From a virus: a stretch of DNA of 20,462 nt. The notes below the pieces were generated by a model. The model searched no databases. It saw only the letters and a program-made list of their open reading frames with translations, and was not told where the DNA came from. Where the stretch lies: positions 1-20,462 of the IMG/VR virus record IMGVR_UViG_3300047564_002444; one strand, given 5' to 3'. Positions 3,100-15,627 of the stretch are shown here, one piece after another (position 1 is the stretch's first letter; the number at the start of each line of letters is the position of its first letter). Both the position numbers and the translations under genes were made by a program.

Positions 3100-3265
3100 A
3101 ACATCAAGAGCAAAGAAACTTGTAAAACTTCTTGAAAGGTTAATTAAACAAGACCATCTTTATAATGATGACAAAATTCAGGAAATGAAAGCACAACTTC
3201 GTGCTGTAAAAGAACAAATCAAAGAGTTAGAAGCACAAACATCAAAAGGATTTGGAAAGAAATGA
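3092..3265 (+). CDS. small helical protein (57 aa), unknown
   Basis: ATG 3092 to TGA 3263-3265, overlapping the previous gene by 8 bp and thyX by 4 bp (ATGA). The product is Lys/Glu-rich and nearly all predicted helix. The stretch from about residue 28 to 50 (KIQEMKAQLRAVKEQIKELE) shows a heptad-like pattern, so a short coiled coil is likely. The C-terminus (SKGFGKK) is basic. No known family is recognised; translation is probably coupled to thyX. Confidence 0.7.
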   Translation: MTETSRAKKLVKLLERLIKQDHLYNDDKIQEMKAQLRAVKEQIKELEAQTSKGFGKK

Positions 3266-10454: not shown

Positions 10455-11219
10455 GTGGCTAAAAAGTTTAGAATAGCAGATATAAAACCAATAGTTACTA
10501 ACCTTGCACAGACTTCTCATTACCAAGTTATATTTGGTGGGTTATCAGGAGAACTTTTACAATATCTATCAGTTAGAGGAGTAACTCAATCATTTATTGT
10601 GGAGAATGCTGGTTTATTGTGCTACTCCGCTGTTCTTCCAACAACTTCTCTTGGAACTAAAATGGTTGATGGAAATTACACAGGTATTACTGAAAATTTT
10701 GCATACAATCGAATTTATCCAGATATTACATTAGAATTTTATGTTGATAGTAATTATCGAACATTAAAGTTTCTTGAGAGTTGGATGGAATTTACTGCGA
10801 GTGGTTCTCATAATAATATAAATTCTGTTTCTCCGGCAGTGAGGCAAAATAGGGATGGATATTTTATTAGAATGCAATACCCAGATTATTACAAATCAAA
10901 TTCCACAAAAATTATAAAATTTGATAGAGACTATAAAGAAGAAATAGAATACCATTTTTATGGTCTTTTTCCATATGATTTGTCTCCACCGACAGTTAGT
11001 TACTCCCAGTCCGATACGTTAAAAATTTCTGCAAGTTTTAAATATGATAGATATGTTGCAGGTAGAGCATTAAGTATTAATTATTATAATGGAAGTGCAA
11101 ATAATATTGAACCAAACATAACAAATAATCCAATAAGACCAACAACAAGAGGAACAACAGTATATCAAACTGCACAAGCAGGTCAAACAGAAGGAGTTAG
11201 TGAAAGAATTCGCAGATAA
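10455..11219 (+). CDS. tail-tube-fold baseplate/tail protein (gp19/gp54-like)
   Basis: The 254-aa protein starts at GTG 10455, with AAGG at 10443-10446 eight nt upstream. Core segments are AQTSHYQVIFGGLSGELLQY, CYSAVLPTTSLGTKMVDGNY, AYNRIYPDITLEFYVDSNYR, LKFLESWMEF, YFIRMQYPDYY and a C-terminal EIEYHFYGLFPYDLSPPTVS then LKISASFKYDRYV. This is the order of the phage tail-tube fold (gp19 and its baseplate relatives gp48 and gp54). In cyanomyoviruses a protein of this type lies here as a baseplate or tube component. Whether it is the gp54 tube initiator or another tube-like protein is open. The last 45 residues are Asn/Thr/Gln-rich and probably disordered. Confidence 0.75.
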   Translation: MAKKFRIADIKPIVTNLAQTSHYQVIFGGLSGELLQYLSVRGVTQSFIVENAGLLCYSAVLPTTSLGTKMVDGNYTGITENFAYNRIYPDITLEFYVDSNYRTLKFLESWMEFTASGSHNNINSVSPAVRQNRDGYFIRMQYPDYYKSNSTKIIKFDRDYKEEIEYHFYGLFPYDLSPPTVSYSQSDTLKISASFKYDRYVAGRALSINYYNGSANNIEPNITNNPIRPTTRGTTVYQTAQAGQTEGVSERIRR

Positions 11220-11249: not shown

Positions 11250-11972
11250 ATGCCTTTACCACAAATTGCAACTCCAACATATGATTTGGAAATTCCTTCC
11301 TTAAAGAAATCTATCAAATTTCGCCCCTTTCTTGTTAGAGAAGAGAAGATTTTAATTATTGCGATGGAAAGTGAGGATCCAAAACAAATTGCAGAGTCAG
11401 TTAAAAATGTAATTTCAAACTGTATTATTACAAAGGGTGTTAAAATAGACAAACTTTCTACTTTTGATATTGAATATTTGTTTTTAAATATTCGTGGAAA
11501 GTCGGTTGGTGAAGAAGTTGACGTATTAATTACTTGTCCTGATGATGGAACAACTCAAGTTCCTGTGAGTATTAATTTAGATGAAATAACTGTTAAAACT
11601 CACCCAGAGCATAAAAGAGATATTAAATTGGATGATCAATTAACTTTAAGAATGAAATATCCATCGATGGATGAATTCATTAAAAATAATTTTGCAAACG
11701 ATGGACAACAATTTTCTGTGAATGATACCTTTGATATGATTTGTTCTTGTATTGAGCAAGTATATAGTGAAGAGGAATCTTGGACTGCATCTGATTTGAC
11801 GAAAAAAGAACTTGAAGAATTCTTAGAACAACTTACATCAAGTCAGTTTAAGGAAATTGAGAAGTTCTTTGAAACAATGCCAAAACTTTCACATACATTG
11901 ATCGTTAAAAATCCAAATACTGATGTTGAAAATGAAATTGTTTTAGAAGGTCTAACAAGTTTTTTCGGATAG
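11250..11972 (+). CDS. 26: baseplate hub/tail assembly protein, gp26-like
   Basis: The 240-aa protein resembles T4 gp26 (208 aa; T4 baseplate family). It has PTYDLEIPSLKKSIKFRPFL, VREEKILIIAMESEDPKQI, FDIEYLFLNIRGKSVGEEVD, VLITCPDDGT and a C-terminal FKEIEKFFETMPKLSHTLIV, ending EGLTSFFG. These are the standard landmarks. The last codons form the slippery heptamer T TTT TTC (11960-11966) just before TAG. A fraction of ribosomes may shift -1 here and continue into gp51, giving a 299-aa fusion. The place just before the tail genes parallels lambda G, a tape-measure chaperone, so a chaperone role is plausible. It has its own late promoter. Confidence 0.86.
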   Translation: MPLPQIATPTYDLEIPSLKKSIKFRPFLVREEKILIIAMESEDPKQIAESVKNVISNCIITKGVKIDKLSTFDIEYLFLNIRGKSVGEEVDVLITCPDDGTTQVPVSINLDEITVKTHPEHKRDIKLDDQLTLRMKYPSMDEFIKNNFANDGQQFSVNDTFDMICSCIEQVYSEEESWTASDLTKKELEEFLEQLTSSQFKEIEKFFETMPKLSHTLIVKNPNTDVENEIVLEGLTSFFG

Positions 11973-11999
11973 GGATGGCGCACGAAGACCTTGCGTCAT
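11960..11999 (+). promoter_or_regulatory. programmed -1 frameshift signal (gp26 to gp51)
   Basis: The heptamer T-TTT-TTC (11960-11966) is in the gp26 frame as X-XXY-YYZ. After an 8-nt spacer comes an 8-bp hairpin: ATGGCGCA (11975-11982) pairs with TGCGTCAT (11992-11999), seven Watson-Crick pairs and one G-U, around a 9-nt loop. A -1 shift reads Phe-Phe-Arg-Ile-Gly and then the gp51 Met in frame. The hairpin also buries the gp51 start codon, which has only a poorly spaced ribosome site. All three elements match known phage tail-chaperone frameshift sites; use in vivo is inferred. Confidence 0.75.
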
Positions 12000-12148
12000 A
12001 CTATAAAACAAATTTTTCTCTCATTCAGCATCATAAATATTCTTTGACAGAACTCGAAAATATGTTCCCTTGGGAAAGGGAAATTTATGTTGGTTTACTT
12101 CAACAGTACATCGAGGAAGAAAATATGAAGACTGCTGCGAATGGCTAG
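11975..12148 (+). CDS. 51: baseplate hub assembly protein, gp51-like (57 aa; also -1 frameshift extension of gp26)
   Basis: The short protein MAHEDLASYYKTNFSLIQHH continues with KYSLTELENMFPWEREIYVG and LLQQYIEEEN. The ENMFPWEREIY element (hydrophobic, Pro-Trp/Tyr-Glu-Arg-Glu) is typical of the small proteins that follow gp26 in cyanomyoviruses and of the T-part in tail chaperones. Cyanophage annotation calls it gp51, although T4 gp51 is much longer. The ATG is only 2 nt after the gp26 stop and lies in a hairpin, so it is probably translated by frameshifting or coupling. It overlaps the next gene by 8 bp. The fusion name is functional inference. Confidence 0.78.
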   Translation: MAHEDLASYYKTNFSLIQHHKYSLTELENMFPWEREIYVGLLQQYIEEENMKTAANG

Positions 12149-13538
12149 ATACGTTTCAACACTCTCATCATTTAATGAAGGAGATAATCAATCTCTCCAG
12201 AGTACTGTGGTAACTCAGCAACAAAGTATAATTGGTCTCCAAACACAAATTGATAATATTCAAACTGAAGTTACTGGTTTAAATGTAGGATTGAAAAATA
12301 TTGGTGGTTTAATACAAAGAGATAGTATACTTGAACGGAATAGATTAATAGAAGAGCAGAATAAAGAAAAACTTCTAGCGGAAAGAAATATTAGGATTGG
12401 AAAAGAAAATGAAATTGAGCAGAGAGTAACATCTTCTCTTGTTACACCCCTTCAAAGATTAGAACCTAGATTAAACTCAGTCTTATCGGGAATTACTGGC
12501 GCTTTACAAACATTACTGTTTGGATTTCTTGGAAGAGGAGTCATTCAATCAATTTCAGGTCTTGCTAAATTTAGTATAAAAGGATTAACGAGTGCTAGAG
12601 ATCTTGTAACTAAAGTTTTATCCAATGTAGGAAATGTTATCTCTTCTCTTAAGGGTGGATTTAATATAGTTATTAATAGTCTAGGAAGTATTACTAGAAA
12701 AGTAGCAGGAATCGCTTTAAATCTTGCAAAATCTCCAATTAAATTTATTGCAGATTTGTTTAGTAAAGTTCCCGGTCTACTTAAAGGCGGAGTAAAAAAT
12801 GTTGCATCGGGAATAGGAGGGTTGGTTGGATCTACTCTTGATGATTTTTTAAGAATGGGGGCTAAAGTAGCACCACCAGTGATTGCTGGAGGTGCTTTAA
12901 CTGCATTAGATGTTTCAAAGGGAGAAAGTATCGGTAGGGCTTCTTTTGGTGTTGGTACAGGAATGTTAGGTTCTGCAGCAGCATTTACTGCTGGTTCTCT
13001 TTTACCTATTCCTGGTAGTGGTCTTCTTACAGGTGCCTTAGCATATAAACCTTCAGAAGAATTTGGAAAAAAAGTTTACGATTACACCAGTACCACTTTT
13101 AATCCACAAACATTTTTTTCAAATATAAAAAATAATTTCAATTTAAATTTAGATACAAGTAAATTTTTGGGAGATTTATCTCAAGGTGCTAAATCTACAA
13201 TGAATAATCTCAGTATAGGTATAGGAAATTTAACTGGTAAAGGACCTACATCATCAGCGATACAAGGAACTGTTGAAAATAATATAGAAGAAAAAACTCA
13301 AACACTCAAACCTACTTATTCTCCGATTACACCAGCACCAAAAAATCTTCCTTCTGTTGGCAATTTATCAGAACCAAAACCTGATGTAATTGTCGCATCG
13401 TCTCTCTCTCAAAATCAATCTGTCAGACAAAATGTTGTTCAAGATAAACCTATTACAGATGTTCCGTTAATTTCGTCTGCAAATGTGGATAATTTTTATA
13501 CATTATATTCACAAACCCAGTATAATGTGGTAATGTAA
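12141..13538 (+). CDS. virion structural protein with N-terminal coiled coil (tape-measure-region protein)
   Basis: The 465-aa protein has a long Gln/Asn/Glu-rich N-terminal coiled-coil region (about residues 15-110). It then has a hydrophobic helical segment (about 117-137, GITGALQTLLFGFLGRGVI) and alternating amphipathic and Gly-rich hydrophobic helices to about residue 305. A low-complexity Ser/Thr/Pro/Asn tail follows. The middle (APPVIAGGALTALDVSKGES, then ASFGVGTGMLGSAAAFTAGS) looks membrane-active or channel-lining. Its place right after the gp26/gp51 pair is where a tape-measure gene usually lies, but the helical part is short for a T4-size tail. No named family is recognised. It may be a hub core component. 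Confidence 0.7.
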   Translation: MARYVSTLSSFNEGDNQSLQSTVVTQQQSIIGLQTQIDNIQTEVTGLNVGLKNIGGLIQRDSILERNRLIEEQNKEKLLAERNIRIGKENEIEQRVTSSLVTPLQRLEPRLNSVLSGITGALQTLLFGFLGRGVIQSISGLAKFSIKGLTSARDLVTKVLSNVGNVISSLKGGFNIVINSLGSITRKVAGIALNLAKSPIKFIADLFSKVPGLLKGGVKNVASGIGGLVGSTLDDFLRMGAKVAPPVIAGGALTALDVSKGESIGRASFGVGTGMLGSAAAFTAGSLLPIPGSGLLTGALAYKPSEEFGKKVYDYTSTTFNPQTFFSNIKNNFNLNLDTSKFLGDLSQGAKSTMNNLSIGIGNLTGKGPTSSAIQGTVENNIEEKTQTLKPTYSPITPAPKNLPSVGNLSEPKPDVIVASSLSQNQSVRQNVVQDKPITDVPLISSANVDNFYTLYSQTQYNVVM

Positions 13539-13539
13539 T

Positions 13540-15627
13540 ATGACAATTTTATCTTTAGGTAAGGCAAGTAAATCCCTATACACTACAAGGAAAAAAACTT
13601 CTTTAGCATCAAACACGATTAAGAGTATTTCAAATATTCTTACAGATAGATCATTAAAAAGAAAAAATTTAACAACTAATATTTTAAATTATAAAAATAA
13701 GAGAATACAGAGAGAAAAAAGAGAAAAAATTCAAGAAGCAATTAGAGCACCCATTCAAATTACTAAGTTTAGAGGTCCTATATCTTTATCTTTAGCACAA
13801 ACAGGAAAAAGTTTTACAGAAAGAATTCTTGGATTTGTTGGGTTTATTTCTACTGGTTGGTTGTTATCAAATATGCCAACTTGGACTGCTGCAGGAAATC
13901 AGTTAATTGATAGAATACGTACCATTTCTCCAATTTTATCTGGATTTACTGATAGTATTGGTCAACTTATGACTGATATTGGAAGTCTTACTAATGGATT
14001 TTATCAAAATATGAAGATATTTGATTTTTCAGATAGTAATAATCTAGTTCGTGGTGCAATGTCTGACTTATCATTAACTTTACAAACAATGGGTGATAAA
14101 ATTACTGAAGCATTTGATGTATTAACGGCACCTTTTATTGGTGTTCCCCCTCTTGGTTCAAAGGGAGAACCTGGTGCATATCCAGATACAACTCCCCCTC
14201 CTCAAATTCCACAATCACCTCCACCTTCTTCTGGTAGTGGACCTTCAGGAACTACATATGGTGTTAATTTAAAAGCTCTTGCTGATGCAACTTCATCTGC
14301 GGAAGGAACTTATAATTCTATCGGACCATTTACATATTACCCAATGGGGCATGGATTGGGAAGATATCAATTTATGGTGGGGAGAGAAGATGTTCAAGCG
14401 ATTATTTTAAAAAATGCAGGAAATGATCGTGCAAAAGCATTACAATTAATTGAAAGAGCGAAAAGTGGTGATAAAAAAGCAGCTAGAGAATTATTAAACA
14501 AATATTTTAAACCTAGCGATCAAGATTCTTTATTTTCTCAACACGCAACAAATACTTTAACTCAAATAAAAAGAAAATATCCAAATGCAGGAGAAGAATT
14601 TTTAGTTCAAAAGTTTGGGGTTTATCATTTAACTGGAGGAGACTATCCAAATAGTAGAGATACTCTTGGAACTAGTGGCAAATCTCATGGTGACAAAATT
14701 TTATCCGCTTATAAACGCTTAAAAGGAAAATCATCACCATCACAACCACAGATAACATCAGCACCTTCAAATATTTTAGGAACATTTACATCTCCTTCTC
14801 AACAAATTATTGATTTTTTCACAGGAAAAAAACCATCAGCGATCCCAGCAGGACAAAGATCATTAGTAAAAGGTGATGTGTTTACAAAATCATTAGGTAA
14901 AGGAGTTGATTATGTAGAAATTGGAGATCTATATGGTTCTAGAGGTGGAGCACATCGTGGGATAGATATTTTAATTCCTCATGGGACATATATTGCATTA
15001 AGGACTGAGTGTGAAGTTGTTGTTCAAGGTGAGTATGGTAATTATGGATTATTAATGGACGTTTGGGTTCCTTCTTATGGTGTTCAATTAAGAATGGCTC
15101 ATTTGAGTTCAGTTTTAATTAAATCTGGAAAAATACCTGCAGGAACTTCTTTTGCTAGAGTTGGTTCAAGTGGAAATGCCTCTGGTCCTCACATTCACTT
15201 TGAATATGACACTGTGAAGGGAGAAAGTAGAGGAGGTGGGGCAGGAAATCCAGAAGCATATGTTCGTCTATTACTCTTAACCAAATCTCCAAATAAATCA
15301 CAGTTTTCTGCGCCACCAAGTTCAATTCCAGGAAAACCATCTATACCATCTACACCTTTAACTCCACAGTTACCCTCAACATCAATTCAAACTCCGGGGG
15401 GTGAAGTGCAAATTGAATCTAATTCTCCATCAGTATTGGATGAATTTTTGATTCAAATAACACCAGAGAGAAAAGGAAGGCAGATTATTTTTATAAATGA
15501 TGTAAAATCATCTGGAGAAAAAGTTGTAATGAGTGCTGGTGGTTCACAAACTATTTCAGTCAATGAGACTGATATGGTAAATAACTTTATCAAAAATAAA
15601 CTTCTTTTAGATTTGAATTACCTATAA
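13540..15627 (+). CDS. tail hub protein with muramidase/transglycosylase-like and M23 peptidase domains
   Basis: The 695-aa protein has four parts. Residues 1-200 are basic coiled-coil and amphipathic helices (FTERILGFVGFISTGWLLSN). A Pro-rich linker covers about 203-236. Residues 242-395 form a muramidase or lytic-transglycosylase-like domain with a candidate catalytic Glu at 255 (SSAEGTY) and the GRYQF motif at 274-278. A second linker leads to an M23 zinc peptidase (about 440-575) with H472 and D476 (HRGID), H521 (MAHLSS) and H551/H553 (GPHIHFE), all metal and catalytic positions present. The tail is Pro/Ser-rich with a small C-terminal domain. It probably cuts both glycan and peptide bonds during infection, standing in for the lysozyme that gp5 lacks here. 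One nt separates it from the gene before; it overlaps gp27 by one base. Confidence 0.85.
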   Translation: MTILSLGKASKSLYTTRKKTSLASNTIKSISNILTDRSLKRKNLTTNILNYKNKRIQREKREKIQEAIRAPIQITKFRGPISLSLAQTGKSFTERILGFVGFISTGWLLSNMPTWTAAGNQLIDRIRTISPILSGFTDSIGQLMTDIGSLTNGFYQNMKIFDFSDSNNLVRGAMSDLSLTLQTMGDKITEAFDVLTAPFIGVPPLGSKGEPGAYPDTTPPPQIPQSPPPSSGSGPSGTTYGVNLKALADATSSAEGTYNSIGPFTYYPMGHGLGRYQFMVGREDVQAIILKNAGNDRAKALQLIERAKSGDKKAARELLNKYFKPSDQDSLFSQHATNTLTQIKRKYPNAGEEFLVQKFGVYHLTGGDYPNSRDTLGTSGKSHGDKILSAYKRLKGKSSPSQPQITSAPSNILGTFTSPSQQIIDFFTGKKPSAIPAGQRSLVKGDVFTKSLGKGVDYVEIGDLYGSRGGAHRGIDILIPHGTYIALRTECEVVVQGEYGNYGLLMDVWVPSYGVQLRMAHLSSVLIKSGKIPAGTSFARVGSSGNASGPHIHFEYDTVKGESRGGGAGNPEAYVRLLLLTKSPNKSQFSAPPSSIPGKPSIPSTPLTPQLPSTSIQTPGGEVQIESNSPSVLDEFLIQITPERKGRQIIFINDVKSSGEKVVMSAGGSQTISVNETDMVNNFIKNKLLLDLNYL

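Follow-up and report, generated by a model that had tools for sequence, protein, structure and literature searches.

Does gp51 begin at a start codon of its own, or is it the far end of gp26, read by ribosomes that change frame just ahead of the gp26 stop? The locus that raises this question lies in a virus record of 20,462 bases, analyzed over its whole length and here called the window; among named phages its nearest relatives belong to the Kyanoviridae, a group of cyanophages (e.g., S-SRM01, S-SKS1, and P-SSM2).

The gp26–gp51 Junction

The final codons of gp26 in the window read AGT TTT TTC GGA TAG, and the elements around them are arranged as follows (counts refer to the representatives described in the next section).

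11250–11972, + strand: gp26 open reading frame, short form (TAC-N-like), 240 aa (PF12322, E 2.2e-74; phrog_150, E 3.3e-80)
11946–11950, + strand: SD-like element GAAGG (GAGGG in most relatives), 9 nt 5' of the heptamer, from the anti-SD pairing peak
11960–11966, + strand: slippery heptamer T_TTT_TTC, in phase with gp26, from the sequence and its relatives
11966–12148, + strand: −1 frame extension "gp51", 60 codons and a stop, putative C-terminal part of a 299-aa long form (phrog_634, E 1.3e-26)
11967–11974, + strand: spacer of 8 nt between heptamer and hairpin
11970–11972, + strand: gp26 stop TAG, one codon past the heptamer (same spacing in 85/90 representatives, no spacing in 5/90)
11975–11982, + strand: 5' arm of the predicted stimulatory hairpin, over the gp51 ATG at 11975–11977 (folding)
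11992–11999, + strand: 3' arm of the predicted stimulatory hairpin (folding and pair statistics)

The gp51 frame, with its stop at 12146–12148, is −1 with respect to gp26 and open from the heptamer onward, so that a slip would join 239 and 60 residues into a product of 299 aa with the junction ...SFF-RIGM.... The hairpin, of 8 bp, starts 8 nt past the heptamer, inside the range of 5–9 nt expected for a stimulatory structure. The 48 nt that follow the heptamer have a minimum free energy of −12.9 kcal/mol, which corresponds to z −4.4 when the −1 frame is shuffled synonymously. An earlier note on this DNA had given the same positions for the heptamer, the same phase, spacer, and hairpin, and the same fusion length, and all of these were correct; its remarks that the gp51 ATG lies inside the hairpin and that the ribosome site of this ATG is poorly placed also held, the ATG falling in the 5' arm and the window having no well-placed SD sequence for it. 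It should be noted that the window is AT-rich and holds 57 in-frame heptamers of the form X_XXY_YYZ in 5772 codons, and its sequence alone is therefore weak evidence; an argument from this single sequence was dropped as insufficient.

Conservation of the Heptamer across Relatives

The comparison covered 80 IMG/VR loci, further loci found through the gp26 proteins of HTVC008M, P-HM1, Va3, Cr30, and ACP17 (single-protein IMG/VR scans with the Va3-, Cr30-, and ACP17-type gp26 contributed few), and named phages, 193 junctions in all, which were reduced to a non-redundant set of 90 representatives with less than 90% identity. The loci of T4, the K362 type, KNP5, XG4, and GXN1 were handled apart and stand outside this count.

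In 187 of the 193 junctions and in all 90 representatives (TTTTTTC in 80, TTTTTTA in six, and TTTTTTT in four), a motif T_TTT_TT[C/A/T] is separated from the gp26 stop by zero to one codon, and it is retained across proteins down to about 23–30% identity. The six junctions without it are four loci that end before the end of gp26, one with an internal gp26 stop (L108), and one in-frame gp26–gp51 fusion (L005), the latter being the only exception among the 80 IMG/VR loci. The L108 contig is short and otherwise 99% identical to HTVC008M, and its premature stop is probably a sequencing error. The fusion in L005 (positions 2001–2894) encodes 297 aa, its junction being 2 nt shorter at the T run, and is either real or an assembly error.

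Ahead of the two Phe residues stands Ser, Asp, Asn, Ala, or Thr, and the codon for this residue ends in T in every case, as against 34–81% in gene bodies; the second Phe is encoded by TTC in 80/84 cases, compared with 29% in gene bodies, and where it is replaced by Leu the codon is TTA, which is still slippery. The expectation from codon usage for a T-ending codon followed by TTT over the 90 representatives is about 1e-32, a value that assumes independence and is overstated given the kinship of the sequences.

Predicted Stimulatory Elements: Hairpins and an SD-like Sequence

Hairpins were assessed in the 90 representatives by folding the 48 nt after the heptamer and comparing them with shuffles that preserve the −1 frame protein. 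The mean z was −2.92, and 91% of the representatives fell below −1; a few had no hairpin by folding (e.g., L092, L189, L193, and L198). The predicted stems are clade-specific and lie at about one position: ATGGCGCA/TGCGTCAT in the window's clade, GCCCTC/GAGGGC in the P-HM1 clade, and a long stem in S-PM2. Within the window's clade, one pair of the stem varies between G-C (28/40 representatives) and T-A (12/40), and the remaining pairs are nearly always kept.

A third part of the signal, absent from the earlier note, lies upstream. Most relatives carry an SD-like GAGGG 8–9 nt 5' of the heptamer, where the window has the weaker GAAGG. Over the 90 representatives, predicted pairing with the 16S tail is strongest, at −7.1 kcal/mol, where the 8-mer stops 7 nt short of the heptamer; further upstream the values range from about −2.5 to +2.5. 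The Glu codon at this site is GAG in 51/76 cases versus 30% in gene bodies (P 4e-11, kinship ignored).

The gp51 Extension and Alternative Readings of the Junction

The −1 frame is open for 55–66 codons in 90/90 representatives, and an alignment of 13 diverse extensions indicates that it is conserved as protein. In 26/90 representatives, this frame has no ATG, GTG, or TTG in its first 18 or more codons and the peptide is conserved nonetheless (e.g., RIALFQEGLARFYQTNFALVQHH); without a start codon over this length, gp51 would be reachable in these phages by shifting only. Several records, those of S-CAM4, Aeromonas 65, AsFcp_2, and DSL-LC03, do not annotate the extension as such. As judged from these sequences, gp51 generally appears not to be an independent gene and to form the C-terminal end of a gp26 frameshift product.

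The best of the alternatives is that gp26 and gp51 are separate genes coupled by stop and start, with ribosomes that finish gp26 at the TAG re-initiating at the gp51 ATG to give a free gp51 of 57 aa. The ATG lies 2 nt past the stop in the window (11975) and in its clade, an ATG stands at this place in 40/90 representatives, and gp51 is annotated as a gene of its own in records, all of which speak for such coupling. However, it leaves the invariant heptamer, the T-ending codon, and the SD-like bias unexplained, and the start codon is missing at this place in P-HM1-, S-CAM4-, HTVC008M-, and Aeromonas 65-type phages although conservation of the peptide starts at the heptamer; the codon is TTG in two representatives and CTG in DSL-LC03, and the window's own ATG is buried in the predicted hairpin and lacks a well-placed SD sequence. 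We therefore consider coupling improbable. Slippage of RNA polymerase rather than of the ribosome on the run of six T residues would be suggested by the homopolymer itself, but a run of six T that ends in C is short by the standards of such slippage, and the way the run is set in codon phase, with hairpins 3' and an SD-like element 5' of it, is characteristic of a shifting ribosome, which makes a transcriptional origin very improbable indeed. That the heptamer merely mirrors Phe-Phe coding in an AT-rich genome and goes unused may seem plausible from the 57 heptamers of the window and from the share of TTT among Phe codons (71%), but has next to no probability, since the comparative record of these sequences excludes a chance heptamer through its full retention in 90 representatives, the excess of TTC at the second Phe, the open −1 frame, and the hairpins.

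Distribution of the Signal and the Contrast with T4

The signal extends beyond the cyanophages to KVP40 and to phages of Aeromonas, Stenotrophomonas, Acidovorax, Caulobacter, and Pelagibacter. The heptamer is found in Schizotequatrovirus (Va3, and KVP40, our locus L105), Ishigurovirus, Angelvirus, Cinqassovirus, Menderavirus, and Busanvirus, as well as in Caulobacter phage Cr30, Pelagibacter phage HTVC008M, and Methylophilales phage Melnitz-1. The alignment of junctions that the earlier note had proposed thus came out in its favor: The heptamer, the −1 phase, and mostly a hairpin at a similar position are kept over the greater part of the T4 superfamily once the T4-proper lineages are set aside. 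Loss of the heptamer with both frames kept, which it had set against a frameshift, was found only in Ackermannviridae-type phages, which retain the −1 phase and have degenerate T-rich sites.

In these Ackermannviridae-type loci (L090, L202, L203, L204, and L205, including SP1, K362, 1.244.A, and Kuja), the gp51-like frame is still −1 at the gp26 end, and the sites read A_CTT_TTC, G_ATT_TTC, A_CTT_TTT, or C_CTT_TTT. In K362 and 1.244.A an ATG overlaps the stop, and Kuttervirus SP1 has no obvious start.

T4 itself is organized differently. Gene 26 is on one strand and gene 51 on the other, and the end of T4 gp26 carries neither the heptamer nor any slip site. T4 gp51 matches PF12322 (residues 1–201, E 3.9e-52) and phrog_634 (residues 147–246, E 1.2e-23), and because of these two matches it has the make-up of a frameshift fusion. 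A short PF12322 protein and a long one, PF12322 plus extension, are thus the layout common to the window locus and T4, with T4 gp26 corresponding to the short form and T4 gp51 to the same family plus the extension; T4 encodes the two as separate genes, whereas the window locus could make both by frameshift. The KVP40 record notes for a small gene a resemblance to 40 residues in the C-terminal end of T4 gp51. We lean somewhat toward the view that frameshifting is ancestral for the gp26/gp51 pair in the T4 superfamily, and that the T4-proper lineages swapped it for a duplication, with a short 26 and a pre-fused long 51; if so, the textbook model T4 would be the exception.

Gene Neighborhood and Predicted Fold

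The genes on either side of the pair are listed below.

10455–11219, + strand: upstream neighbor, tail tube family protein (PF23849, E 1.2e-12; phrog_45, E 1.7e-37)
12141–13538, + strand: downstream neighbor, sharing 8 nt with gp51, of weak likeness to tape measure proteins (E 0.0019–0.026 to tail lysin/tape measure PHROGs)

The gene order is tail tube family, gp26, gp51, and a tape-measure-like gene, the last resting on weak matches in the window and on annotation in HTVC008M and Cr30, whose records place a tail tape measure gene two genes 3' of the extension. Further downstream in the window (13540–15627) lies a 695-aa open reading frame; it carries an M23 peptidase domain (E 2e-11) and may encode a cell wall hydrolase of the tail tip.

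The structure of the fusion was predicted from the natural in-frame fusion of L005 with alignment rows for gp26 only; a mixed alignment including separate gp51 pieces was dropped, the gp51 pieces being misaligned against gp26. The predicted model has a pLDDT of 87. The HK97 tail assembly chaperone 2ob9 is the most probable among the 50 PDB matches listed, but at E 2.8 (prob 0.38, TMt 0.50) this match lacks significance; a sequence search of the PDB with the gp26 profile gave chance matches only.

Proposed Mechanism

The −1 frameshift reading is favored by the heptamer, the T-ending codon, the conserved −1 frame, the missing start codons, the hairpins, the SD-like bias, the gene order with its weakly tape-measure-like member, and the make-up of T4 gp51, in which the long form exists as one protein; the in-frame fusion L005 also counts for it. 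Against it we count the ATG near the stop in the window's clade, the lack of a significant structural match to the HK97 chaperone, the Ackermannviridae-type sites, the representatives without hairpins, and the inflation of the codon statistics by kinship. The proposal of the earlier note, a −1 shift from gp26 into gp51, thus finds support in the comparison across relatives. As far as conservation of sequence can tell, the comparison shows the heptamer site, the phase, the stimulators, and the extension to be under selection.

Slippage itself, its efficiency, and the ratio of short to long forms are what we infer from this signal. Most ribosomes would stop at the TAG at 11970 and release the 240-aa short form. 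A minority would pause at T_TTT_TTC, where the downstream hairpin would hold them, joined in most relatives by SD-like pairing 8–9 nt upstream; the two tRNA-Phe would slip back by one base, and reading would continue in the gp51 frame to give the 299-aa long form. Short and long forms would then act together as a tail assembly chaperone pair by the logic of lambda G/GT, the common part binding the tape measure protein and the extension recruiting tail tube subunits. A chaperone role of the two forms is suggested by their position and design, by T4 genetics, and by the identification of Vladimirov et al. as cited by others. Taken together, we regard it as highly likely that a dnaX-like −1 frameshift yields a short/long tail assembly chaperone pair at this locus, as in lambda G/GT.

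Relation to Known Frameshift Systems

The E. coli dnaX signal consists of an SD-like sequence about 10 nt upstream, the heptamer, and a downstream hairpin. The gp26/gp51 signal has the same three-part layout, with a U-run in place of the A_AAA_AAG of dnaX, in a different gene and for a different purpose. Lambda G/GT and tail assembly chaperones of other long-tailed phages are made through a −1 frameshift (Xu, Hendrix and Duda 2004, reviewed in PMC5009743), a G-T shift described as widely conserved except in T4, and a short-plus-extended product, as proposed here, is the hallmark of G/GT chaperones (PMC5009743). The gp26 of this locus is a PF12322 protein, and its shift site is T_TTT_TTC with an SD-like element and a hairpin. 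A −1 shift at GTTTTT has been predicted for the tail chaperone of the Vandenendeviridae/Andersonviridae, where a T-rich site would likewise lead to TAC-N and TAC-NC and the downstream frame is misannotated as a separate gene (PMC12846349); the phage lineages and the shift motif differ from ours.

In T4, gp26 and gp51 count as chaperones of hub assembly, and gp51 is an essential protein that the mature particle does not contain (PMC3004832). The earlier note had held that T4-type gp26/gp51 is not generally described as a frameshift pair; this stands for T4 itself, with its separate genes, and needs limiting for other T4-like phages. The tail assembly chaperones of T4-like phages were identified by Vladimirov, Gautam and Davidson 2022, a work whose title favors another mechanism and which PMC12846349 (2025) cites for shift signals of the polyT kind in the TAC-N genes of T4-like phages. 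According to the PRFect paper, some T4-like phages encode the short form and the fused long form in separate genes. A literature search found no report of a gp26/gp51 shift in cyanophages, which is no proof of absence. Frameshifted tail chaperones are of a known kind, and the literature may thus already contain part of the gp26/gp51 finding. The present analysis contributes the signal with its three parts, how far it extends, the absence of start codons, and the way in which T4 differs.

If the frameshift reading is true, the annotation of gp51 would be corrected in hundreds of T4-like records (549 records match the extension), gp51 there being the C-terminal part of a frameshift product, unannotated in several records, and not a "hub assembly catalyst" in its own right. 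Much of the T4 superfamily, common cyanophages among it, would then fall under the general rule of long-tailed phages, and frameshift versus gene duplication would offer a natural comparison of ways to set the ratio of short to long chaperone.

Another kind of shift site may be present in Streptococcus phage vB_SagM-GXN1 (L103), where the frame after a gp26-like protein (PF12322, E 4e-25) is +1 and encodes a gp51-like peptide (3239–3253 and downstream): A CCC_CGA near the end of the gp26-like frame could be a +1 rather than a −1 shift site.
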